Part shown: positions 2,121-42,095 of the stretch, one piece after another
Layout of the letters: every line of letters starts with the position of its first letter
How positions within the stretch are numbered: the first letter of the stretch is position 1
NCBI GenBank assembly: GCA_019750095.1
Contig: JAIEOW010000153.1
Location: forward strand, 1 to 64,000
Direction of reading: 5' to 3'
DNA from: Phycisphaerales bacterium
GTDB taxonomy: Bacteria; Planctomycetota; Phycisphaerae; Phycisphaerales; UBA1924
Length of the DNA: 64,000 bases
The notes under the pieces: model-generated
What the model was told of the DNA's origin: nothing
What the model saw: only the letters and a program-made list of their open reading frames with translations
Databases searched by the model: none
Made by a program: the position numbers and the translations under genes

Positions 2121-3359
2121 TCAGTGGGGGAGCGCGAGCAGCCGCGTGGCTTCGTCGACATCTTTGTCGCCACGGCCCGAGAGGTTGACCATGACGTGTT
2201 GGTCGCGAGGCATGTCCGCCGCGAGCTTGACGGCCGCGCTGATGGCGTGCGAGGTTTCCAGGGCTGGGATGATGCCCTCGTTGCGGGCCAGCAGCGTGAA
2301 GGCCTCGAGTGCGCCCGAGTCATTGGCGGCGATATAGCTCACGCGGCCGGTGTCTTTCCAATAGCTGTGCTCCGGCCCGACGCCCGGATAGTCGAGCCCT
2401 GCAGAGCAAGAGTGCACGTCGGCGGTCTGGCCTGCCGGGTCTTGCAGGACGTAGCTCAGCGAGCCGTGCAGCACGCCGGGGGTGCCGAAACTGAGCGGGG
2501 CGGCGTGGTCCCCGGGTTTGTTCGATCGCCCGCCGGCTTCGACGCCGATGAGCTTGACGCTGGCATCGTCGACGAAGGGATAAAAGATTCCCGCGGCGTT
2601 GGAGCCGCCGCCGACACAGGCGACGACGGCGTCGGGCAAGCGACCGATGGATTGCAGGGACTGGGCACGGGCTTCGCGCCCGATGACGGATTGAAAGTCG
2701 CGCACGATCATCGGGAAGGGGTGCGGGCCGACAACCGAGCCGATGATGTAGTGGGTGTGATCAACGGAGCCCATCCAGTCGCGCATCGCTTCGTTGGTGG
2801 CGTCCTTGAGCGTGCGCGAGCCGGAGTTGACCTCAACCACGCGTGCGCCCATGAGACGCATCCGCACAACGTTCAGCCGCTGACGGCGGACGTCCTCTGA
2901 GCCCATGTAGACATCGCATGACAACCCGAAGTGTGCCGCGGCGGTGGCGCTGGCCACGCCGTGCTGCCCCGCGCCGGTCTCGGCGATGATGCGCTTCTTG
3001 CCCATGCGGAGCGTGAGCAGGGCCTGGCCGAGCGTGTTGTTGATCTTGTGCGCCCCGGTGTGGGCGAGGTCTTCGCGCTTGAGCCAGATCGTCGCGCCGG
3101 CGGCAGGGCTCTTGGCGATGGAGCGCACGTGGCTGGTGAGCCGACTGGCGAGATACAGCGGCGTGGGCCTGCCGACGTAGGTGCGCTGCAGCAGCTCCAG
3201 CTCGGCCCAGAACTTTGGGTCATTGCGCACCGAGTCATAGACATCACAGAGCTGGGCGAGCGCGAGCGAGAGCGTCTCGGGAACGTATGACCCGCCGAAG
3301 ACGCCGAAGCGGCCTTGCGGGGTGGGGACGGCAGAGAGTGGTGCGGGCACAGAAGACAT
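2121..3359 (-). CDS. trpB: Tryptophan synthase beta chain
   Basis: TrpB condenses indole with serine to give tryptophan, using PLP, normally in an alpha2beta2 complex with TrpA. The protein (412 residues) starts with the family signature [15 protein letters not shown]. It carries the PLP lysine in HTGAHKINN, the ETGAGQHG loop, the glycine-rich phosphate cup GGGSNAAG and the GRGDKD segment near the C terminus. ATG at 3359 places the family N terminus correctly; longer reading frames upstream add unrelated residues. trpA and other trp genes are not in the window, so the operon is split here. The gene ends 4 bases from the convergent dioxygenase gene. Confidence 0.97.
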
Positions 3360-3411: not shown

Positions 3412-4881
3412 TCAGTTGACCGCAGCGTGCCAGCTCTTGCCATCGCGGATCACCCGCCGATACAGCGTGTCCCGCTCGATCGGCCTGAACCCTGCATCCC
3501 GACAGGCCTTCTGCAAGCTCCAGACGCTGACTTCCTGATGGGTGCTGGCGTTTCCGACCTTGGTGATGTCGTACCAGACGACGGTGCCGTCGATGTCGTC
3601 GGCCCCACACTGCAGCATGAGCTGGCTCATGGGCAGGGTCTGCATGATCCAGAACGCCTTGGTGTGCGGGAAGTTGTCGAGCATGAGGCGAGCGATGGCG
3701 AGTGTTCGGAGGTTCTCCAGCCCGCCGGGGCCGGGCAGGTGCTCGAGCTCGGAGCCGTCGGGGAAGAAGGGGAGGGGGATGATGGTCTGGAAGTAGCCGG
3801 TGGTCTGAGCAGGAACGGCATTCGGCACTCGGGATTCGGCATTCGCGAAGGCGATGTGCTCGGGTAGTGGGGTGCCGGGCCGCGTCAGCGTGATTTCCGG
3901 GACATCGTCGCCCTCGTCGCCGGAGTACCCCAAGTGTCCTGGTTCTGGATCGTGGTTCGGGCGAATGCCGGTTGCCGAATGCCGAATGCCGCGGTATCCC
4001 AGCCCCATCAACGCCCGGTCTTGTGCCCTGCGCAGCATGTCCATGTGCACGAGCCGATCCTCGCGGCGTTCGATGTGCCCGTACAGCAGCGTGGCGTTGG
4101 TGTTCAGCCCAAGCTCGTGAGCGACGCGATGGACGTCGAGCCAGACATCGGATCGGATCTTGCCCTTGTACGCCTCGTCGTGGACGCGGTCGTCAAAGAC
4201 CTCGGCCCCGCCGCCGGGAAGCGAGCCCAGGCCCGCGTCCTTCAGCTTGCTCAGCACCCAGCGAATGCCCTCCTGCCGCAAGGCTCGCCCCTCGGCCCCG
4301 GGCACATTCGCGCCCTTGTAGACCTTGGCGATCTTGGCCAGATGCACCACCTCGACAGCGGTGAACGCCTTGACGTTCAGATCACTCCCGAGCGATCTCG
4401 CCTCATCTCGAATCGTTGAGCAGAGATCGGTGTAATGGCTGAACGGCAGATACGGGTGCAGCCCGCCGACGGAGTGCATCTCTGTTGCACCGCCCTCGAC
4501 CGCTTCGCGCACCTGGGCGCGGACATAGTCCATGTCTCGGGTGTACGCGTCGGCGTCGCCCTGCTTGCGGTAAAACTCGCAGAACTTGCAGGAGAGCGCG
4601 CAGACGTTGGAATAGTTCAGGTGGCGGTTGATGTTGTAGTACGCGGCGTCGCCGTGGAGCCGACGACGCACGACATCTGCAAGCGCACAGACCGACCAGA
4701 TGTCGTGCGTCTGGAAGAGCGCGCGTCCGTCATCGAGCGACAGCCGCTCACCACGCACGACTTTGTCGCGGATCGCGTCGAGCGCGGGATCGGGCTCCGG
4801 CGGCCTTTGCCCCAGCTTGGGGCCAAGATCCGATCCATGGGTCGCACGAGTCAGGAGGTTGTGCATCTGGGCGACAGACAT
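3412..4881 (-). CDS. mqnE: Aminofutalosine synthase (radical SAM), with in-frame repeat insertion
   Basis: MqnE joins a chorismate-derived enol ether (3-[(1-carboxyvinyl)oxy]benzoate) to adenosine in the futalosine route to menaquinone. The radical SAM motif is C-x3-C-x2-C in [10 protein letters not shown], near residue 100. Family segments [26 protein letters not shown] and the late [12 protein letters not shown] are present. The 489-residue protein is longer than usual because about 68 residues (roughly 293-361) are inserted just before the [10 protein letters not shown] segment. The insertion is flanked by inverted arms of heptamer repeats (see 3816-3994) and keeps the frame. ATG at 4881 is preferred over an upstream TTG at 4917. 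No other mqn genes are nearby. Confidence 0.93.
3816..3994. repeat. Inverted heptamer-repeat element inside mqnE
   Basis: The left arm (3816-3847) is a run of heptamers GGCATTC, GGCACTC, GGGATTC, GGCATTC. The right arm (3961-3994) carries their reverse complements as GCCGAAT-type heptamers. About 113 bases lie between. The arms could pair into a long imperfect stem. The block sits in frame inside mqnE where the family normally has no residues, so it looks like an acquired element tolerated in the protein. Confidence 0.8.
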
Positions 4882-5187
4882 CGGGAGAATGGTACGCCGG
4901 GGTTGGCGTGTTTTCAAAGTTTCTTGGAAGTACAGGCGTGCTCAGAATCCGAATTTGGATGTATCTGTGTATTGCCCGCTCGCCGTTTTCAACGTCCTGC
5001 GAGGCAGGTGCTTGCGAGGACGAAACTACTCGATTCTGGTCAGTTTTGGAGAGCGGGGAGAGCTTATCGCTTCTCCTTGCTCGAACACGTGATCGGCTTT
5101 GCTTCATTGCTCCTTCGCCAGCCAATGTGTACTCTTTGCCATCTGTTAGGGACAATCGATTTGCCTTTCGACCAGTGGAGTTTATCT

Positions 5188-5595
5188 TTGACTAAACCTA
5201 CAGTTCACGAAGACCGATCAAAGTTGCCGAGCGGATGGAAGTGGGCTGATTGGTCAGGTTCGTCTGCAACCAAGGCCGTTTGGAATGATCTGGAAGAGAA
5301 CGTCAGACAGGGTTTGCAGCTGCGATTTGCAGAGATAATCGTTGCCATGGCATGCGGACGTCCGCTTCCGAGGGAGAAAGTGCACTACGACAAAGGCATA
5401 GGCAAAGCGAAGCTGCGTAAGCCTAGTCCTGGCTGGAGAGGGATGTTTTTCAGAGATGGTCAAGAGCGATTCGTAACCCACGTGTTTCGCAAGGGTGATC
5501 ACGATCACGACCAGCAGATTTCCATGGCATTGAGGGCGAGAGACGAGCACCTCGCGCGGAAACAGAAGCAGACCCAGCAAAGGCCAACGCAATGA
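5188..5595 (+). CDS. Probable toxin-like partner of an XRE antitoxin
   Basis: A 135-residue protein if translation starts at TTG 5188, which has GGAG 7 bases upstream. ATG at 5125 in the same frame is the alternative. I do not recognise a specific family. A small basic protein placed just before a helix-turn-helix gene, with an ATGA stop/start overlap at 5592-5595, is the arrangement of HigB/RelE-type toxin-antitoxin pairs. Residues such as GWKWADW, RGMFFRDGQERFVTHVFRKG and many Lys/Arg/His fit an RNA-binding or nuclease role, but this is inference. Local sequence is clearly richer in A+T than its neighbours, suggesting transfer. Confidence 0.55.
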   Translation: MTKPTVHEDRSKLPSGWKWADWSGSSATKAVWNDLEENVRQGLQLRFAEIIVAMACGRPLPREKVHYDKGIGKAKLRKPSPGWRGMFFRDGQERFVTHVFRKGDHDHDQQISMALRARDEHLARKQKQTQQRPTQ

Positions 5596-6173
5596 CTCCG
5601 AGATCATTCAAGGACATACCAGAGTCCTTAGTACTGTACAACCGAGAGCGGTACAAAAGTGAACTGGCCCAATCGCTATACGATTTGATGCAGCGGCACC
5701 AAATCAATCGATCCAAACTGGCAGTGATGCTTGGGGTTAGCAAGGGGAGAGTTAGCCAGGCATTGACCGGTAGCCACAACTTCCGGGCAGAGACAATTGC
5801 CGACTGGCTCCTTGTGCTCGGCCGAGCGGCGCATGTGACGCTGGGAGTCAATGCCGAAGAAGTACGCTTTCCAAAAGACGAAGCCATCACTGCTGAAGAC
5901 GCGGCAAATCAAGTGGCATTTGCAGTGGCCGAATCCGAGCTGGCTTTCACAACCATCGAGAACATTCATGGCAAAGCAGTCCAAATCGCGCCGTGGCGCG
6001 GCATCAAAGTCACCAAGCAGTCCAGCAGGCGCGGAGCTTCAACTGGCTACAAATCCGCAACTGCCGACCGTCTCCATCGACGACGTACGAGTCGCACTGA
6101 GATCAGATACACCCTTGATGATCCTTTCGTTTTTTCAAGGAATTCCGGGAACGGAACCGGATATGCGGTTTGA
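5592..6173 (+). CDS. XRE-family helix-turn-helix protein, antitoxin-like
   Basis: The N-terminal half holds a clear helix-turn-helix: LMQRHQINRSKLAVMLGVSK followed by GRVSQALTGSHNFRAET, about residues 28-70. This is the Cro/C1 type seen in HigA antitoxins, which bind the operon promoter and neutralise the toxin. The start overlaps the upstream toxin-like gene by 4 bases (ATGA), implying translational coupling. From about residue 126 the reading frame runs under a second gene (5968-6279). The final 68 residues are Arg/Ser-rich and may not be conserved, so a frameshift or a naturally long overlap is possible. Confidence 0.75.
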   Translation: MTPRSFKDIPESLVLYNRERYKSELAQSLYDLMQRHQINRSKLAVMLGVSKGRVSQALTGSHNFRAETIADWLLVLGRAAHVTLGVNAEEVRFPKDEAITAEDAANQVAFAVAESELAFTTIENIHGKAVQIAPWRGIKVTKQSSRRGASTGYKSATADRLHRRRTSRTEIRYTLDDPFVFSRNSGNGTGYAV

Positions 6174-33744: not shown

Positions 33745-35784
33745 ATGTTTGCACGTCCGTCCGCCATCCTTCGCGCCCTCTTTTCCGGCTCCGATCGCTC
33801 CGTCACATCCAAGCCCAAGCGCCCGCGGCAGAGTTCCGCCCACGCCTTCGGCCTCGAAGCCATGGAGTCGCGACAGCTCTTCAACTCCGATCTCGCCATC
33901 TCGTGGGATCTGGACAACTTCCGCTTCCCCGCCGTCATCGTTCCCGGTGATCGCTTCAATCCCGACGGCGGCAGCACCCGCATCGAAACCCCGCTCCTCG
34001 TTCTCAACAACGGGCCGCTCTCCGCCAACGGCACCGTCAACATCGAGTTCTACCTCTCTACCGACACCAACCTCTCCCCAGGCACCGACACCCTCCTCCG
34101 CCGATACACCGGTGAACCGCTCTTCCTCAATCGCTTCACCGGCGACCCGGACGACATCGGCGTCTTCTCCCCCGATATGCTCGTCCCCGCAGATACCGCG
34201 CCAGGAACATACTTCCTGATCGCACGGCTGGTCGCCAGCAACAACAACATCCTCGACACCAACCCCTCCAACAACATCGCCGTCTCCGCAAACGCCGTGA
34301 ACGTCCAGCGCCGCTTCGGCTCGTTCTCCGGCCGAAACAACGTCACCATGACCCTCCTTGACCCAGAGGGCACACGCGTCTCCTTCGCCATGAGCGGCGG
34401 CGGCTTCGGCGATGTCACCACTTCACCCGATGGCTTCAGCGTCACCCTCACGGGCTCCGGCAACGCCTCCATCGTCCAGGTCACCAACACCGGCGGCGAC
34501 GGCCGCTACGACTTCGTCGGCGTCGCCGTCAACGGCTCAATCGGCACCTTCAGCGCACCCAACGCTCGCCTCCGCGGGCCCCTCACCGCCACCACCGGCT
34601 TCGGCAACATCACCCTTGGCGATGTCCTCGGCCCGCGCACCATCACCGTTCCAAACACCAGCACCAGCCCATCCTTCAACTTCAACAACGTCACCAACCT
34701 CATCATCGACTCTGCCGTCGGTATCACCTCCGTCACCGCTCGCTCCTGGGACGACACCGATAGCACACGAGACATCATCGCCGCACCCTTCCTCGAAGCC
34801 CTCACGTTCATCAGCGGCAACCTCGATCTGGACCTGCGACTCTCCGGACGCTCCGGCGGCTCACTCCCCACCCTCGGCCCCGTCAACATCAATGGCGTGA
34901 TCAAACAAGCCCTCTGGCTCGTCAACGGCTCCGTCACCTCCATCAACGCCTTCGCCACCACCGTCAACTTCTTCGCCAACATCAAGGGCAACATCTCCAG
35001 CATCTCCACCGTCCAGACCCTCCGCGCCAAGATCGCTGCACGCAGCATCGGAACGATCACCTCCGGCCGAGACATCCTCGCCAGCCGCATCTACTCCGGC
35101 GCAGATCTCGGCGATGACGCCCGCTTCGGCGGCACCGGCGCCAATGCCGATACCTTCAACCCCGGCTCCATCACGTCCATCATCGTCGCCCGCAACACCG
35201 CCAACACCATCATCGGCGCCGGCTTCGACCCCGTCGATGCCGTCCCACGCAACGGCAACGATCGCATCCTCGGCGGCACCACCAGCCGCATCGGCGCCAT
35301 CACCGTCGGCAACATCTCCGGACTGCAGTCACGCTTCCTCGCCGGTGCCTATGACGGCCCGATCACCTTCGGCGGCGTCAACATCGACTGGCGATCCTCC
35401 AGCCGCTTCGAACTCTCCACCACCGGCCCACGCGTCGGCTCCTTCAGCGTGATCCGGTCCTCCACCGGCACGGGTCAGTCGGTCGCCGACATCACCATCA
35501 CCCTCGATTCGACCAGTGTCATGTCGTTCGCCAGCATCCTCACAGGCACGCTCCGCATCACCGGCCCCGGCGGCTTCGATGCCATCGCCTCGCTCACGAG
35601 CAAGTCCTTCGCCCCCAGCTCAAACAGCGCGGCCGCCACCGCCGTCTTCCGCGTCCTGCTCGCCGACACCGCCGTGATCCCGCTCCCGGGCCAGTACGAC
35701 ATCGCCATCACCACCAACACCGCCGCCGACGACCGCGGCAACTTCGCCATCCCCGGCATCTTCGGCAACTTCAATGTGGCATAA
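33745..35784 (+). CDS. Large secreted surface protein with LEPR-like N-terminal motif
   Basis: A 679-residue protein. About 40 residues in, FGLEAMESRQLF matches the spacing of the planctomycete LEPR-type sorting motif (L-E-x-x-E-x-R-x-L), with a basic Ser/Arg/Lys leader before it. The rest is rich in Gly, Ser, Thr, Asn and short beta-strand repeats, with a CARDB-like adhesive stretch at about residues 60-180 (TPLLVLNNGPLSANGTVNIE and SNNIAVSA). There is little or no Cys. It probably ends up on the cell surface. GGGAGG lies upstream of ATG 33745. It diverges from the kinase-led operon. Confidence 0.8.
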   Translation: MFARPSAILRALFSGSDRSVTSKPKRPRQSSAHAFGLEAMESRQLFNSDLAISWDLDNFRFPAVIVPGDRFNPDGGSTRIETPLLVLNNGPLSANGTVNIEFYLSTDTNLSPGTDTLLRRYTGEPLFLNRFTGDPDDIGVFSPDMLVPADTAPGTYFLIARLVASNNNILDTNPSNNIAVSANAVNVQRRFGSFSGRNNVTMTLLDPEGTRVSFAMSGGGFGDVTTSPDGFSVTLTGSGNASIVQVTNTGGDGRYDFVGVAVNGSIGTFSAPNARLRGPLTATTGFGNITLGDVLGPRTITVPNTSTSPSFNFNNVTNLIIDSAVGITSVTARSWDDTDSTRDIIAAPFLEALTFISGNLDLDLRLSGRSGGSLPTLGPVNINGVIKQALWLVNGSVTSINAFATTVNFFANIKGNISSISTVQTLRAKIAARSIGTITSGRDILASRIYSGADLGDDARFGGTGANADTFNPGSITSIIVARNTANTIIGAGFDPVDAVPRNGNDRILGGTTSRIGAITVGNISGLQSRFLAGAYDGPITFGGVNIDWRSSSRFELSTTGPRVGSFSVIRSSTGTGQSVADITITLDSTSVMSFASILTGTLRITGPGGFDAIASLTSKSFAPSSNSAAATAVFRVLLADTAVIPLPGQYDIAITTNTAADDRGNFAIPGIFGNFNVA

Positions 35785-35879
35785 TGCCCGGCAACGAAAC
35801 AAACCCGTCCCTAGGCCGTCACGAAATGGTTGCGTCCTCGTGTCCAATGACGCTTGGGATCGCTGAACAGTGGTCTTTG

Positions 35880-35907
35880 GTGGCACAGGCCTCCCGCCTG
35901 TTTCTTG
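35880..35907. repeat. GTGGCACAGG-type hairpin (single arm)
   Basis: The sequence GGTGGCACAGGC-CTCCC-GCCTG folds into a short hairpin. It closely matches the left arm of the element at 51132-51205. Here the partner arm appears to be missing. It lies in the 232-base gap downstream of the surface protein gene, where no gene is seen. Confidence 0.6.
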
Positions 35908-36016
35908 GAAACACGCACTCTACACTGGCAATACGCCGGGTCCATCACTCGTGCCGAGACCTCGCGTCATCAAGACGCCAGCTTATCGGCGACGCTGACC
36001 GGAAACTCCGTAGAAG

Positions 36017-36682
36017 TCAGTTCAACCAGTGTCGAAACTTGATCTTTGTACGATCAACGTCCGACCTCGGCGTCCCGCATTCCGGGCAGGGCAAATGCAG
36101 CGGAATGCTCTTCAGTTCGTAGGAACACGTCTCGCAACGTTGCTGACGGCTGCGACCCCACGCACGATACATCATCGCCAGGCAGGGTAAAGTCACAACA
36201 CCCGTCCATGCCGTCCAGCTCATCGCAAGTCCGAGAAAGTGCGGCCAGATTGGCACGACTCGCGCGTACTCATCGTCGCCAACGCCGCGAGGAAGAACCC
36301 ACGCGATCGGAATGCCCGCGAGAAAAGCAGGTTTCCGCAAAAAAGTCCCCGGAATCTGCGTTTGGGCATAGACCGATGAAAAACAAGGCACTGGCCATCC
36401 ATATGTTATCGCTTCGATCTCGGGCCGTGGCACGCCTTGTTGATGAGGACCTATCGCAATCGGAGTAAGCAACCCCCCGACCAATTGGGCGGCAATATCC
36501 TCGCCATGTCGCATTCCTAAGAACGCGAATATGGGTCGGGGGCTCCTTGAGAACTCAACGGCTCCCCAATGAACGACGCTACTGAGCCACGAACAAAGTA
36601 GCCCGCACAGCGGGATCAGAACCCACTTCGGTATTCGAAAGAGGCGACACATCGAGTGGCGGAAGATTCTCTTGACGAACAT
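36017..36682 (-). CDS. Membrane protein with C-terminal zinc ribbon (module copy A)
   Basis: A 221-residue protein I do not recognise by name. It has an N-terminal helix (WVLIPLCGLLCSWLSSVVHW), an extracytoplasmic stretch with YGWPVPCF, a second hydrophobic segment near LGLAMSWTAWTGVVTLPCLA, and a C-terminal zinc ribbon CETC...CPEC. The neighbour at 38893-39552 has the same plan including a GWPxxC motif, so the two are likely paralogues. It follows the secreted protein gene (36726-37781) by 43 bases that contain a perfect hairpin. ATG 36682 is used. Confidence 0.7.
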   Translation of the reverse strand: MFVKRIFRHSMCRLFRIPKWVLIPLCGLLCSWLSSVVHWGAVEFSRSPRPIFAFLGMRHGEDIAAQLVGGLLTPIAIGPHQQGVPRPEIEAITYGWPVPCFSSVYAQTQIPGTFLRKPAFLAGIPIAWVLPRGVGDDEYARVVPIWPHFLGLAMSWTAWTGVVTLPCLAMMYRAWGRSRQQRCETCSYELKSIPLHLPCPECGTPRSDVDRTKIKFRHWLN

Positions 36683-36691
36683 GTGCAAAGT

Positions 36692-36719
36692 GAGTCAGCG
36701 GCACTCCTGCCGCTGACTC
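36692..36719 (-). other. Perfect 12-bp intercistronic hairpin
   Basis: GAGTCAGCGGCA and TGCCGCTGACTC pair perfectly around a 4-base loop. On the transcribed (minus) strand the loop reads GGAG. The hairpin fills most of the 43 bases between the two genes of module copy A. No U-tract follows it, so a simple terminator is unlikely. Transcript processing, attenuation or control of translation of the second gene is possible. Confidence 0.75.
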
Positions 36720-36725
36720 TCGTGT

Positions 36726-37781
36726 CTACCACCAGGGATGAAATCCGTCGGGCCAGTGCCCGCAGGTCACCGGTCGAGTGGGATCCGCAGGAATAGGTGT
36801 AGGAACAGTGCAAAGTGGAGGCATGAATGGCGCGCCTCCAGGTGGGAGTGGGCAAGTCCAGCTTGTCGTCGCTTTGCACACCTTGACGCACTGCACGCCA
36901 AGGAAGCATGTGTCGTAGTACCAGTACCAGACCTCTTGCTTGTAGCAGACGGTGGTCGGCGTTGAACAAGACGGATCGAACGCTGGATCTTGTTCGACTC
37001 CAGGCTGCCAACGCGGCGGATTCGGCCCCCACGGCAGGTCAAGAGGCGGTCCCGGTGCCGGGATCAAGGTCCCGGGCAGACATCCCCACGGTCCACAAGG
37101 TGGCGGGGGTGGGGGTGGCGGAGGCGCGACCTGCGCACACGTTGCAAGCACTGCCGCAAACGGCTGGCTCGCCCATCCAGCTTCTACGCCCTCCTTCGCC
37201 GTCGAAGAATAAATCACCGCGTCCGACAGCGCCGTCAGAACTTCGTTCTTGCCACACGATGCCTGCTGACTCACCTTCTCGATCGGAACATCCGCCGCCT
37301 TGTAGCCGATGCCCGTCAAGAAGCTCACGGCGAGATCACGTTGCGCGGACAGCGTGATCGAGAAAAACGGGTCGTCAATCATCAGCCCGTTTGAGTACGA
37401 CTTGGGTTCGGAAGATGTGCCCGACGGAATGGTGCCAACGCCAAACATCGGGTCCCAGATGTCTTCGATCTCGAATCGACTCTTGACATACTTCACCGAC
37501 TGCAACGGATCGCCGGTCCAGGCCTTCGACTCCCACGCGCCGCCATAAACCGCAGGCGATTCGTACCAGATGGCACCGATGTTGTCGCCCACAACCGTTG
37601 AAGAGTCTCGAATCGCGAGCACGCCTTTCACCGAGGTCTGACCATTCGTCTCAACGCCGATCGGAATGAGCGTCCAGTCCTGGGCTCGAGTGCGAATCGC
37701 TGCAGGACGGGCGACTGTTTCACCGAGCGCGGAACTACAGCCCATCGCCGTGAGCATTGCGCACACAACAGACTTCCACAT
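36726..37781 (-). CDS. Secreted Cys-rich protein of unknown function (module copy A)
   Basis: A 351-residue protein with a signal peptide (MWKSVVCAMLTAMGCSSALG). The N-terminal domain (WTLIPIGVETNG, then VKGVLAIRDSSTVVGDNIGAIWYES) is shared with the protein at 39664-40569. A run of nine prolines near residue 220 leads to a C-terminal part with many Cys and Trp residues, likely disulfide-bonded. No enzyme motif is visible. It would be exported and work with the zinc-ribbon membrane protein encoded just downstream. Confidence 0.75.
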   Translation of the reverse strand: MWKSVVCAMLTAMGCSSALGETVARPAAIRTRAQDWTLIPIGVETNGQTSVKGVLAIRDSSTVVGDNIGAIWYESPAVYGGAWESKAWTGDPLQSVKYVKSRFEIEDIWDPMFGVGTIPSGTSSEPKSYSNGLMIDDPFFSITLSAQRDLAVSFLTGIGYKAADVPIEKVSQQASCGKNEVLTALSDAVIYSSTAKEGVEAGWASQPFAAVLATCAQVAPPPPPPPPPCGPWGCLPGTLIPAPGPPLDLPWGPNPPRWQPGVEQDPAFDPSCSTPTTVCYKQEVWYWYYDTCFLGVQCVKVCKATTSWTCPLPPGGAPFMPPLCTVPTPIPADPTRPVTCGHWPDGFHPWW

Positions 37782-37917
37782 AAAATCTCCTTGTTCTGAT
37801 CGTCAGCAAGACGACCCTTTGGCCGACTTTTTCAAAAGCCGACAGCAAAGTGAACAAAGAGATCAAATCGACGTCAAGTTTGGGATGATCTCGTCCACAA
37901 TGAGATCAAATCATCGA

Positions 37918-38292
37918 TTACGCCTTCGCCGGCTGCGCCTTGCTCGCCTTCACGGCCATCTCGCAGATCTGGTCAAACACCTTCGGATCGGTGATCGCCA
38001 GCTCGCTCAGCATCTTGCGGTTCAGCAGGATGCCCGCCATCTTCAAACCGTTGATGAACTGGCTATACCGGGCGTTCCGCATGCGGCAGGCCGCGGTGAT
38101 GCGGGTGATCCAAAGCCGGCGCACGTTCCGCTTCAGCCGACGGCGATCGCGAAACTGGTACACGCCCGCGCGGATGAGCGCGAACTCGGCCTTGTACTTG
38201 CTCTTGTGGCCCGAGCCGTAATGCCCGCGGGCCCGGCGAAGGATGCGCTTGCGGGCCTGCGTGCGGGCCGCGCCTTTACGAACTCGAGGCAT
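37918..38292 (-). CDS. rplT: Ribosomal protein bL20
   Basis: A 124-residue L20 beginning MPRVRKGAARTQARKRILRR and containing the YRDRRRLKR-type block (FRDRRRLKRNVRRLWITRIT) and the conserved NGLKMAGILLNRKMLSELAI end. L20 binds 23S rRNA early in 50S assembly. It follows rpmI by 150 bases on the same strand. The infC gene that normally heads this operon is not upstream; module copy B is there instead. Confidence 0.98.
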   Translation of the reverse strand: MPRVRKGAARTQARKRILRRARGHYGSGHKSKYKAEFALIRAGVYQFRDRRRLKRNVRRLWITRITAACRMRNARYSQFINGLKMAGILLNRKMLSELAITDPKVFDQICEMAVKASKAQPAKA

Positions 38293-38442
38293 GATTCAAA
38301 CTCCGTCAATGCGTCCGAGTCGGGGCGGCGGTTCAGCCGTCTTCTGGTCCCGGCGGACAGGGGGGGATGCGAGTTAAGGATAGAGAAAAACGAGGAGCGA
38401 AAAGAATGTGGAAGCGACCAATGGACTCGGGTAAACCCCGAA

Positions 38443-38769
38443 CTAGGCCTTCTTCACGCCATACTTCAGACCCGCCTTGGCGCGTTCGGCCCGGGCCTCG
38501 GCCTGTGCCGCCCGACGCTCAGTCGGGTTCGGGTTCCGCCGAAGGGCGGCCCGAGTCTGATCCCGCCCACGCAGACGACGGAACAGCAGCTTCTCCAGCC
38601 GCTTCGCCTCGGGGTTAGACATCATCTTGTCGGTTCGCAGGCGACGCAGACGCTTGCTGCTCTTGTGAGAGCGCAAGTGCTTGCCGAACGCACGGTTATG
38701 GCGAACCAGACCGGTCTTGGTGAGCCGAATCCGCTTCAGGCTCGACTTGTGGCTCTTGTTCTTGGGCAT
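38443..38769 (-). CDS. rpmI: Ribosomal protein bL35 with C-terminal extension
   Basis: The first 64 residues (MPKNKSHKSSLKRIRLTKTG, then LVRHNRAFGKHLRSHKS) are a normal L35. About 45 extra residues follow, rich in Arg, Ala and Glu, probably helical, taking the protein to 108 residues. ATG 38769 is clear from the family N terminus. Extensions of this kind are not part of bacterial L35 in general; their role here is unknown. Confidence 0.95.
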   Translation of the reverse strand: MPKNKSHKSSLKRIRLTKTGLVRHNRAFGKHLRSHKSSKRLRRLRTDKMMSNPEAKRLEKLLFRRLRGRDQTRAALRRNPNPTERRAAQAEARAERAKAGLKYGVKKA

Positions 38770-38892
38770 GACTCGAAACCTCGCCTGCTTGGTGAATACC
38801 CAGAGCACCGGTCGGGCGCAGGCGTGCCCGGAGCCGGGGGGGAAAGAGTGTAGCCTCGCGAGGTGCGATCGGCAAACTCTTTCGGTGCCCTA

Positions 38893-39552
38893 TCACTCAA
38901 GCTTTGTATCGACCCGTCCACCACATTCCGGGCAGACCATCTGTTCGGGTACTCCAACAAGGTATCCACAATCGCTGCAGCGCCCACTCAGCTTCCGCAC
39001 GATTCTATGGGTCGTGGAAAACAGTCGGTGGCCGTTGGCAAGGAGAAAAAGGACACTCCCCCAGAAAATAATATTCGCAATATAGCCGTTCCAAATCACT
39101 CTGCTACGAAGCTCATCGAGTCCATATGGAGAAGTACTCGCAACAGCACACCGCATGGGCCAGCCGACTGCCAGCTCTTTCGTATCGCGTGGATACTGCG
39201 TCGGAGGTTCATTTGCGAGTGACCATGATGGCGGACCATGCCCCGAACGACTCAGAGTCAACTCGGGTGGATTGCACGTTCCGACACCCGGAACAAACGG
39301 CAGGAGCCGGCAATATGTCACCCAAACTCTTGAATCGCAAAACCAAAACCACGCCACACTTGATTCGCTCGGCCGGAGTGAGCCATGCCCACTCGTGCCT
39401 CGCAAGGGCTTTTGCCAGGTATTGACAACCAAGAGACTGGCAACCCGAGGTGACGCGAGTCCGACAGTCGCGACAAACGCAACGCACATCAGCCAAGCGG
39501 TGACGGACTTTCGCCACTCTTGACGAAGGGCTATTGACAACTTCCGTTGCAT
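38893..39552 (-). CDS. Membrane protein with C-terminal zinc ribbon (module copy B)
   Basis: A 219-residue protein with an N-terminal helix (SVTAWLMCVAFVATVGLA), an extracytoplasmic part containing VGWPMRCAV, a second helix (YIANIIFWGSVLFLLANGH) and a C-terminal ribbon CSDCGYLVG...CPECGG. Architecture and the GWPxxC motif match the protein at 36017-36682. ATG 39552 is a reasonable start and overlaps by 22 bases the frame-corrected end of the secreted gene upstream. Longer N termini read through that gene and are rejected. Confidence 0.68.
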   Translation of the reverse strand: MQRKLSIALRQEWRKSVTAWLMCVAFVATVGLASPRVASLLVVNTWQKPLRGTSGHGSLRPSESSVAWFWFCDSRVWVTYCRLLPFVPGVGTCNPPELTLSRSGHGPPSWSLANEPPTQYPRDTKELAVGWPMRCAVASTSPYGLDELRSRVIWNGYIANIIFWGSVLFLLANGHRLFSTTHRIVRKLSGRCSDCGYLVGVPEQMVCPECGGRVDTKLE

Positions 39553-40569
39553 GGCGGTGTCCAGCTTCCATACGTACAACTCGAAGGCGACCCCGCAGTA
39601 GAAGGCGGGGGTGTCGGGCATCCACCGATAGCGCAAGCACCTGGGCAGTTTGAGGTAATAGTCTCACTGCAAGTAGATGTGCGACTCTGCGTGCATGTCC
39701 AAATCACTCCGCCGCGCGGGGGGCACACAGGTCACCGTTTGGGTCTCTGCGTAAGTCGCCGTTCTTGAAAATGTACAGTAGCAATTCGCGACACCCGTGG
39801 TGAAATCTGGCACGGCCGTGCATGGACCGGTGCTCATCCAACCCGGCATCGGTCCGATCGGCAGTTTGGGCGTTGGTGTGATGACAATCCTTGGAGTGAT
39901 GGGCCAAAGCGATCGGTGTTCGCATTGGATGTCCGTGATCGCGGCGACCAAGTACTCGCCTCCTGAAGCGGGCTGAATCTCAGCGTCAGTCATCACCGAG
40001 ATCGTGGTATCGATCGTGTTGAAGAAAAGATCAGGTGGACAATCCTGTCCTGTTCCTGTCTCACCCACCAGATTTGCAGCTGGGTAGCCGAGATTCACCA
40101 AGACTTGGAGAAGTTCCGATGCACTCGAACTGGCCTGCAGAAAGCCGGAAAGCGGATCGCTCACTAGAAGGCCGTTCCCAAAGGCCGTCGGATTGCCCGC
40201 GACTGATGCGCCTTGAAGCTGCGGCCCCAAATCGTACGGCCAGACATAGTCACCGCTGTCGTCGAGTCCGAGCGTGTTCTTTACCTTGTTGATCGCAGCA
40301 AGCCGGTCCGTGCTCTGCCACGAGTATCCCTTCCACGAGTTCGTCGACAAGTCACGCATGTACCACACCGCCACGATGTTGTTCGCGAACGTCACCGACG
40401 GATTCGCGAGCGCCAGAACGTTGTCAACGCGAGAGGGTTCGCCCAGCTCAACGATCGGGACCAGAGTCCATTCATTGTTTGCCACCGTCCAAGGCCCGAC
40501 CCGATAATCGGCACGAGCGGCGGAAGCGAGCACGCATACGCAAGTCAGCAGCATCAGGAAAAATCGCAT
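39531..40569 (-). pseudogene. Secreted Cys-rich protein, probable frameshift (module copy B)
   Basis: The first frame (39664-40569, 301 residues) has a signal peptide (MRFFLMLLTCVCVLASAARA). It aligns by eye with the secreted protein of copy A (WTLVPIVELG, VDNVLALANPSVTFANNIVA). It ends soon after a run of six C's on the coding strand (39718-39723). Dropping one C continues in a second frame to 39531 with a Cys-rich tail (GVIWTCTQSRTSTCSETITS and CPGACAIGG), matching the Cys-rich end of copy A. So the gene is either frameshifted, programmed, or carries a homopolymer sequencing error. It is preceded by 17-bp tandem repeats. Confidence 0.65.
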
Positions 40570-40577
40570 TCGGACCT

Positions 40578-40643
40578 CCCGGAAAGTTTAAATCCCGGGA
40601 AAGTGCGAATCCCGGGAAAGTGCGAATCCCGGGAAAGTGCCTC
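40578..40643. repeat. 17-bp tandem repeat just upstream of the copy B ribosome binding site
   Basis: Units of CCCGGGAAAGTGCGAAT occur at 40594-40610 and 40611-40627, flanked by a diverged 16-base unit (40578-40593) and a partial one (40628-40643). Each full unit begins with the palindrome CCCGGG. On the minus strand the last unit runs into GGGAGG, the ribosome binding site of the secreted protein gene starting at 40569. The placement suggests an operator or 5' leader structure. Confidence 0.8.
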
Positions 40644-40718
40644 CAAATGAGGGCACCGCTTTCCAAGCTAACTTGAGGTCATACCCATGTCAAGTGACAC
40701 AGCCGCGATTGTGGATAC

Positions 40719-42095
40719 TCACGGCGACAGAAACACATCCATCGCCCCCGCCGGACTCTCATTCCCCTGCAACGGCTGCGTCTGGTTCGGATTCTGGAAT
40801 CGCGCCACCGCATCCTCAAGCGCCTGCGGCAGCCAGATGTTGTCCATCTGCGTCCCGCCAGCCCCAAGACCGCCGCCCAACCCGCCCCGTGCCACCACCG
40901 GCGTGCGCAGCCAGTGCACCGAGCCGTCGTTCATCAGGGCGTTCTGCCCGCGCTGCATGTGGTTGTCGCTGCTGGCGATCGGGTTGAACCACTCGCCACG
41001 CATCGCACGCACCGTCACCGGCGAGCGATCCGCAAGCACGATCACGGTCTGCGGCTGGGTCCAGCGCGGCCGCTCTTTCGCGAACATGTTCTGATAGCTG
41101 TACGAGATCTCATCCGAGTTCGACCAATCCTCGGCGCTCGATCGGTCCTCGCTCCGGCACGCCATCGCGTTGCCCGGGCAGGCCAGATCGCTCGTCTTGG
41201 CATAGCTGGATCGCACGATCGTGAACAGGTTCGCCGAGTTGGATTCCTCACGCTTGCCGATGTTCCACCACGATCGACCCGCGGCGGAGGCCGAGGCCAT
41301 CGGGAGCATCTCGCGATAGTCGTTGGCATATGCCGCGAACCCGCGCATCGTGCCGAACATCCCCGCCTGGCAAGAGGTCGCCTGAGCCACGCCGCGCATC
41401 GCCCCGACCATCGGCGCCAGCACCGCGCCCGCGATCAGCAGGAGCGCGGCGACCGACGCCAGATCGCCCCAGCGGACCGACGGCCGCCATCGCGTGCCCT
41501 CGACGCTCTGTGCCGAGAGCTTGCGCCCGCGTTCAGAGCGCTCGATGGAGCTTTGGACAAAGGAGAGCGTGCTGGAAACCAGCGCATCGCGCTCATGCCC
41601 TGCCACGGGAAGCTCGAGCACCCGCAGCGTTTCGGCATGACGTGTCGCCCGATCACGCACGCCCCCCGGGCAACGCGACGGATCAAACCCCGCGGCCACA
41701 AGCGCTTCCAGCGCGTCTTCATCGATCGGCGAAAGGTCCTCTGTTTCCAGTTGACGCAGCCGAGCCGCCCGCACGACCGTCGCATCGATCAGTGAAGAAC
41801 TCACTGCCGGTGTCGGCCCGCACCCAAGCAACCCAAGCAACGCCACGCACCGATCAATCCGAGGTTCAGGCCGAGGCTCGGGCGCAAGCCCGGGCACGCT
41901 CTTCGCACGTCCATCCAGCGTCGTCAGTGCCTGGGCTTGCGCCCAGGCCTCGGATTGAACGTCACCAAACACCGCCTCGAGCGCCGCCTGATCCATCGCC
42001 GAAAGCTCAAACCCATGCGACTCATCGTGCCGATCGTCGGATGGGCCGTGCGTGCGGGAAGGATCATTCGGATTGGATCGATTGCTGGGGATCAT
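40719..42095 (-). CDS. Putative anti-sigma-like membrane protein with DUF1559-like ectodomain
   Basis: A 458-residue protein coded 4 bases after an ECF sigma factor. The N-terminal 220 residues are cytosolic and helical (AMDQAALEAVFGDVQSEAWA). One membrane helix follows (VAALLLIAGAVLAPMVGAM), and directly after it comes MFGTMRGFAAYANDYREMLP and a late NHMQRGQNALMNDGSVHWL. The second part resembles pseudopilin-derived DUF1559 proteins (the H...DG signature). The place and helix order suggest an anti-sigma factor with a sensing ectodomain. There is no classic zinc anti-sigma HxxxCxxC motif. Residues about 48-76 are encoded by a hairpin repeat. Confidence 0.65.
   Translation of the reverse strand: MIPSNRSNPNDPSRTHGPSDDRHDESHGFELSAMDQAALEAVFGDVQSEAWAQAQALTTLDGRAKSVPGLAPEPRPEPRIDRCVALLGLLGCGPTPAVSSSLIDATVVRAARLRQLETEDLSPIDEDALEALVAAGFDPSRCPGGVRDRATRHAETLRVLELPVAGHERDALVSSTLSFVQSSIERSERGRKLSAQSVEGTRWRPSVRWGDLASVAALLLIAGAVLAPMVGAMRGVAQATSCQAGMFGTMRGFAAYANDYREMLPMASASAAGRSWWNIGKREESNSANLFTIVRSSYAKTSDLACPGNAMACRSEDRSSAEDWSNSDEISYSYQNMFAKERPRWTQPQTVIVLADRSPVTVRAMRGEWFNPIASSDNHMQRGQNALMNDGSVHWLRTPVVARGGLGGGLGAGGTQMDNIWLPQALEDAVARFQNPNQTQPLQGNESPAGAMDVFLSP
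41868..41953. repeat. Inverted GCAA-hairpin pair inside a coding region
   Basis: The left arm (41868-41898) contains CTCGGGC-GCAA-GCCCGGG; the right arm (41926-41953) contains CTGGGC-TTGC-GCCCAG, its inverted copy. It is the same family as 15291-15379 and 45187-45290. It lies in frame in the sigma-linked membrane protein (40719-42095) and contributes about 28 residues including VPGLAPEPRPEPR. Confidence 0.78.

Follow-up and report, generated by a model that had tools for sequence, protein, structure and literature searches.

Two adjacent genes, one encoding a secreted protein and the other a membrane protein with a C-terminal zinc ribbon, constitute a previously undescribed two-gene unit that is specific to its order and patchily spread within it. 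The unit occurs twice in the window, by which we mean the whole stretch of 64,000 nucleotides analyzed here, where the two pairs flank the ribosomal genes rpmI and rplT. The pairs were gained as movable cassettes, as indicated by empty sites in a sister species, low G+C content, and mixing of families in the tree. Their position beside rpmI-rplT is accidental, and the ribosomal genes are bystanders. The unit defines a family of gene pairs for which no database has a model, and the evidence that its genes belong and move together is strong. Our tentatively favored reading, in which we place somewhat less than even confidence, is that the secreted protein serves in surface recognition or adhesion, has a membrane partner of its own, and is exchanged together with it in the form of cassettes.

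Organization, conservation, and spread of the pair

All six genes lie on the minus strand. Secreted protein A (39664..40569; 301 aa) consists of a signal peptide, a constant N-domain at approximately residues 21-167, and a variable Cys-rich C-terminus. It is followed by membrane ribbon protein A (38893..39552; 219 aa from the ATG at 39552, with an upstream TTG at 39636 as a possible alternative start), which comprises a transmembrane (TM) helix, an outer domain containing GWP, a second TM helix, and a cytoplasmic C4 ribbon, whose two-CxxC zinc-ribbon motif (CSDCGY...CPEC) lies at 38923..38979. Next come the bystanders rpmI (ribosomal protein L35; 38443..38769, named from its sequence) and rplT (ribosomal protein L20; 37918..38292). 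Secreted protein B (36726..37781; 351 aa) has the same N-domain as A and an unrelated Pro/Cys-rich C-terminus, and membrane ribbon protein B (36017..36688; 223 aa from the TTG at 36688 or 221 aa from the ATG at 36682) repeats the plan of TM helix, outer domain with GWP, TM helix, and C4 ribbon, its motif (CETCSY...CPEC) lying at 36077..36136. The intergenic gaps are short: secreted gene B ends at 36726 and ribbon gene B starts at 36688, while secreted gene A ends at 39664 and ribbon gene A starts at 39552 (or at the TTG at 39636).

This layout agrees with the initial annotation, as does the kinship it proposed for the two secreted proteins, which were 29% identical over 182 aa (BLASTP, E=1e-14) and were both recovered by one profile. 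The similarity was restricted to the N-terminal part, and the C-termini gave no alignment. The two membrane proteins likewise have in common the GWP and the C-terminal two-CxxC ribbon attributed to them, together with a TM helix on either side of the outer domain and little else; their sequence alignment was confined to the ribbon (12/27 identities, E=1e-4).

The initial annotation had further called for a test of whether the pair co-occurs away from rpmI-rplT. We defined a pair as a secreted protein matching profile A2 with a two-TM, C-terminal ribbon gene no more than 300 nt downstream on the same strand, a definition that both window pairs satisfied. Flanks were fetched for approximately 80 loci, and secreted genes were considered testable when the sequence behind them extended for 800 nt or more. 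A ribbon gene, scored when an open reading frame with the ribbon lay within 300 nt on the same strand, was present directly downstream at 57 of the 77 testable loci, as compared with 1/74 loci for the upstream position on the same strand and, on the opposite strand, 0/77 downstream and 2/74 upstream. Since the 48 ribbon motif sites in the 4.19 Mb of the own genome correspond to a chance expectation of only about 0.6% per kb and strand, these counts establish the pair as a conserved operon away from rpmI-rplT, and this co-occurrence was confirmed. No ribbon gene was detected downstream at the other 20 of the 77 loci. These exceptions included membrane proteins without a ribbon (L147, L164, L123, and L127), long proteins (L071, 806 aa; L118, 856 aa; L132, 921 aa), and pairs that escaped detection because the window or the motif was strict (L150, L156, and L159). 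Behind some pairs (L063, L129, L139, and L152), extra GWP-ribbon genes were found in tandem.

Five secreted homologs were found in the own genome (4.19 Mb, 202 contigs), namely the two in the window and one on each of contigs C162, C80, and C57. A GWP-ribbon membrane gene lies directly downstream of the C162 and C80 homologs, and the C57 homolog is followed by the start of a membrane protein, cut off where the contig ends. The C57 gene (L031 2115-3374) carries an apparent frameshift near the signal peptide, reflecting a broken gene or an assembly error. Profile searches detected homologs in 11/61 relatives and in 63/400 genomes of the order (48/262 good ones), where they were confined to two families; of 392 genomes drawn from across the phylum, five had homologs, all belonging to these same two families. 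Named records with homologs were the Phycisphaeraceae / Phycisphaerae metagenome-assembled genomes JAHBXK010000037, JAHBXL010000004, and BQMO01000005.

The secreted N-domain had no match over the cut-off in Pfam, NCBIfam, or PADLOC and none in a PDB profile search. The ribbon proteins passed no Pfam, NCBIfam, or PADLOC cut-off and gave weak generic zinc-ribbon matches below the cut-off in Pfam and NCBIfam; a PADLOC match of the ribbon to Cas12f was rejected as chance. Foldseek found no significant match in the PDB with an AlphaFold model that is weak outside the N-domain. In the library searched, no paper joined Phycisphaerae, zinc ribbon, and secreted. The absence of a characterised match, asserted in the initial annotation, therefore held in Pfam, NCBIfam, PDB, PADLOC, and Foldseek. 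Among 78 secreted members scanned with Pfam, none carried a toxin domain, two carried an AMOP domain over the cut-off (L132, E=2e-13; L073, E=5.6e-10), and three further single matches were weak. The AMOP domain stands behind the N-domain common with the window proteins, and AMOP (PF03782) over the gathering score was absent from secreted proteins A and B and from 76 of the 78 members. The AMOP-bearing bacterial proteins lie at L073 3853-5415 and L132 2503-5268. They are long versions of the secreted protein; no ribbon gene was found downstream of L132, and that of L073 is atypical. According to the literature, AMOP occurs in extracellular proteins with a part in adhesion (PMC9818725).

Insertion beside rpmI-rplT and mobility

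The sister species G002 has an rplT 97% identical to that of the window and the same outer neighbors of rpmI-rplT. Its positions 1-1330, 1500-2435, and 2552-3325 correspond to window positions 34446-35778, 37920-38840, and 40718-41494, respectively, and the stretches between these matched blocks measure approximately 170 and 117 nt in G002, as compared with 2141 and 1877 nt in the window. Insert B (35779..37919) is absent from the orthologous place in G002, and insert A (38841..40717) is absent from that in G002 and in G001, a third species of the genus, which also lacks pair A at its site. Both inserts are poor in G+C, with 56.5% for insert A and 57.9% for insert B (measured over 35785-37917) against 63.8% (sd 2.3%, windows of that size), and the GC3 of the four pair genes is 0.54-0.67 as compared with 0.77-0.87 in their neighbors. 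The other G+C-poor stretch of the window, falling to 55.7% and thus below both inserts, lies at positions 3800-5600. Boundary repeats common to the cassette copies within the own genome were not found. At the C162 copy, the pair is missing from the sister species, but changes in the other flank as well mean that this is not a clean empty site.

Two further features of this region were noted. Three exact tandem copies of AATCCCGGGAAAGTGC (period 17) are located at window positions 40591-40640, just upstream of secreted gene A; the repeat falls within the stretch absent from the sister species and was found in no other locus fetched. On the plus strand, window positions 33745-35784 encode a 679-aa secreted protein with no Pfam or NCBIfam match, whose ortholog also adjoins rplT in the sister species.

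A homolog beside rplT was found in 0/20 other genomes, and none of the other secreted loci read had rplT in its flanks. With both G002 sites empty, we rejected a functional link of the pair to rpmI-rplT. The description of the module as duplicated, given in the initial annotation, did not hold as a history. The normalised similarity between A and B was 0.19 in the N-domain, 0.04 in the C-terminus, and 0.03 in the ribbon protein, the latter two at background. In the N-domain tree, B belonged to a supported six-member group with copies from other genera (98/94) from which A was excluded. The distant similarity and the separate tree positions indicate two separate acquisitions of distant family members, and local duplication of one pair was rejected. 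Members of the two families of the order were interleaved in several supported groups of the same tree, which fits horizontal transfer.

Topology, variable C-termini, and co-divergence

In 54 of the 57 partners, one TM helix immediately precedes the ribbon and a second lies upstream of that. The 22 residues preceding the ribbon contained on average 5.2 K/R as against 0.7 D/E, which by the positive-inside rule places the ribbon in the cytoplasm. The secreted C-termini contained 6.0% Cys, as compared with 0.6% in the N-domain, and 10.5% Pro. Their cysteine number was even in 86% of cases, which, in such Cys-rich regions, suggests disulfide pairs outside the cell. In the AlphaFold2 model of secreted protein A, the N-domain forms a roughly five-stranded sheet with additional helices (pLDDT 74-86 over residues 1-90), and the C-terminus has a pLDDT below 50. 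Ribbon protein B was modeled with a TM helix at residues 21-46, a beta patch at 91-149, and a helix at 151-182, followed by the ribbon, and both protein models are of low confidence outside the N-domain and the TM helices.

The variable part of the secreted protein changes together with the partner. When N-domain similarity was held constant, the similarity of the C-termini correlated with that of the partners with a partial Mantel value of 0.42 (57 pairs), while 99.9% of 2000 permutations fell below 0.15; the corresponding value for the N-domain and the partner given the C-terminus was 0.28 (57 pairs). At an N-domain similarity of 0.74-0.75, for example, one locus pair had a C-terminal similarity of 0.55 and a partner similarity of 0.32, and another had 0.22 and approximately 0.10. 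Both regions are fast-changing, and their co-divergence may in part reflect shared time rather than contact. In HBSAPP03, two units stand in tandem and form a clean mosaic: over most of the N-half, the DNA identity between the two secreted genes is 91-99%, whereas the C-half and the whole partner gene are approximately 61-78% identical per block.

The ribbon motif CxxCxY...C(P/S)EC was unevenly distributed among the own genome and 20 relatives, with 48 sites in the own genome, 111 in G039, 0 in each of two family f5 genomes, and 2 in a family f6 genome. A tandem ribbon array without a secreted partner, comprising three GWP-ribbon genes and two other ribbon proteins, lies at L034 2416-6057 (C156), and six ribbon motifs in a row, again with the secreted partner absent, lie at G037:C2:9902-14612. 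A second, unrelated family with Cys-rich C-termini and the core ...LMDPTNGNLSGPF... was seen at L176, L180, and L200 (C103, C137, and C172), and its members are also followed by membrane proteins bearing the ribbon motif. At L174 1441-3057 (C99), the C-terminal part of an RHS-core protein immediately precedes a ribbon protein of 140 aa with two TM helices. Of the 38 RHS loci that were testable in the ribbon-bearing families, no other showed this arrangement (1/38), and ribbon proteins were therefore rejected as general partners of RHS toxins.

Possible roles and comparison with known systems

For a role in surface recognition or adhesion, gene 1 would encode a Sec-exported protein with a constant N-domain and a variable, disulfide-bonded C-terminal domain, and gene 2 a two-helix membrane protein whose outer domain varies with the C-terminus of its secreted partner and whose zinc ribbon lies in the cytoplasm. 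The C-terminal domain would act in recognition or adhesion, and its own partner would use the outer domain to hold, assemble, or recognise it, so that the two proteins would be in physical contact, while the ribbon might serve a common cytoplasmic role across pairs. Gain, loss, and recombination of the units as cassettes would then give each strain its own repertoire. We counted in favor of this reading the conserved operon, the topology, the Cys pattern, the co-divergence, the mosaic, the AMOP members, the empty sites, the low G+C content, and the mixing in the tree; counted against it were the atypical nature of the AMOP members, the 20/77 loci without a ribbon gene, the shared-time caveat on the Mantel result, the low-confidence models, and the lack of a fold match.

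Its main rival is a toxin-immunity pair, in which the C-terminus would be a secreted toxin against related strains, the N-domain would serve export, and the two-TM partner would be an immunity protein at the producer's membrane. We consider this rather unlikely, if not by far. It would account for the constant N-domain and variable C-terminus with a partner directly downstream on the same strand, for the co-divergence and the HBSAPP03 mosaic, for the extra GWP-ribbon genes in tandem, and for the cassette mobility and low G+C content; in addition, two-TM immunity proteins exist, such as Imm-CdiI and Imm17 (PMC3482391). However, 0/78 members carry a toxin domain, the C-termini look extracellular and include the AMOP members, and ribbon proteins abound in other settings (48 motif sites). 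We further marked down the toxin reading because only one of the 38 RHS loci of these genomes had a ribbon partner.

The initial annotation had suggested a surface sensor or an assembly pair, and both are possible roles. As an export or assembly pair, the membrane protein would be a dedicated chaperone or anchor that folds or places the secreted protein, with neither recognition nor conflict involved. The tight operon, the co-divergence, and the membrane topology would suit such a helper, but helpers of this kind usually stay conserved and the partner here is the fastest-changing part, nor would this role alone explain the cassette mobility; we regard it as improbable. We give still less weight to a surface sensor, with the secreted protein as the ligand-binding subunit and the membrane protein signaling inward through the ribbon. 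A TM helix does join the outer domain to the cytoplasmic ribbon, but in the loci read, no constant neighbor encoding a kinase, a sigma/anti-sigma factor, or a DNA-binding protein was noticed, and the ribbon has no known signaling partner. A surface-recognition or toxin-immunity pair fits the variable C-terminus, the co-divergence, and the mobility better than a plain sensor. Finally, a ribosome-linked pair acting as part of rpmI-rplT, favored by its position in this window only, is practically dismissed by the empty sister sites and by the other genomes and loci in which rplT is not its neighbor.

Were the pair a recognition or toxin-immunity system, it would offer a testable handle on self/non-self recognition or surface attachment in little-studied bacteria of the planctomycete group, and would provide a first role for their zinc-ribbon membrane proteins, which number dozens per genome.

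Several known groups resemble the pair in part. Other membrane proteins of the order with GWP and a CxxCGYxxx-CPECG ribbon have the same C-terminal ribbon and partly the same plan of TM helix, outer domain, TM helix, and ribbon, but they occur in many contexts and the secreted partner is absent. The AMOP-domain extracellular proteins (PF03782; MUC4, isthmin, and SUSD2) are linked to the family by the AMOP domain of two secreted members, whereas the family is not known to have an N-domain in common with isthmin or MUC4, nor was one found, and the window copies are without AMOP. Polymorphic toxin systems (PMC3482391) resemble the pair in organization, and two of their criteria are seen in the family, namely a constant N-terminal region joined to a variable C-terminal one and an adjacent cognate gene directly downstream (57/77 loci); mosaic exchange, tandem extra partner genes, and patchy spread are further likenesses. 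In contrast to those systems, the pair has no known toxin, trafficking (RHS, hemagglutinin, T6SS, and the like), or immunity domain, its partner combines two TM helices with a zinc ribbon in the cytoplasm, and its C-termini have an extracellular, disulfide-rich look. In its workings, the pair appears to resemble a polymorphic system of secreted proteins, each with its cognate partner, but since neither a toxin nor a trafficking domain was found, it falls outside the polymorphic toxin families in their defined sense. Slightly more tentatively than for surface recognition itself, we propose that it represents an order-specific polymorphic recognition or conflict system, in which a secreted, disulfide-rich effector with exchangeable C-termini would be paired with a co-diverging two-TM ribbon partner and carried on cassettes that enter intergenic sites, even those between ribosomal genes and their neighbors.
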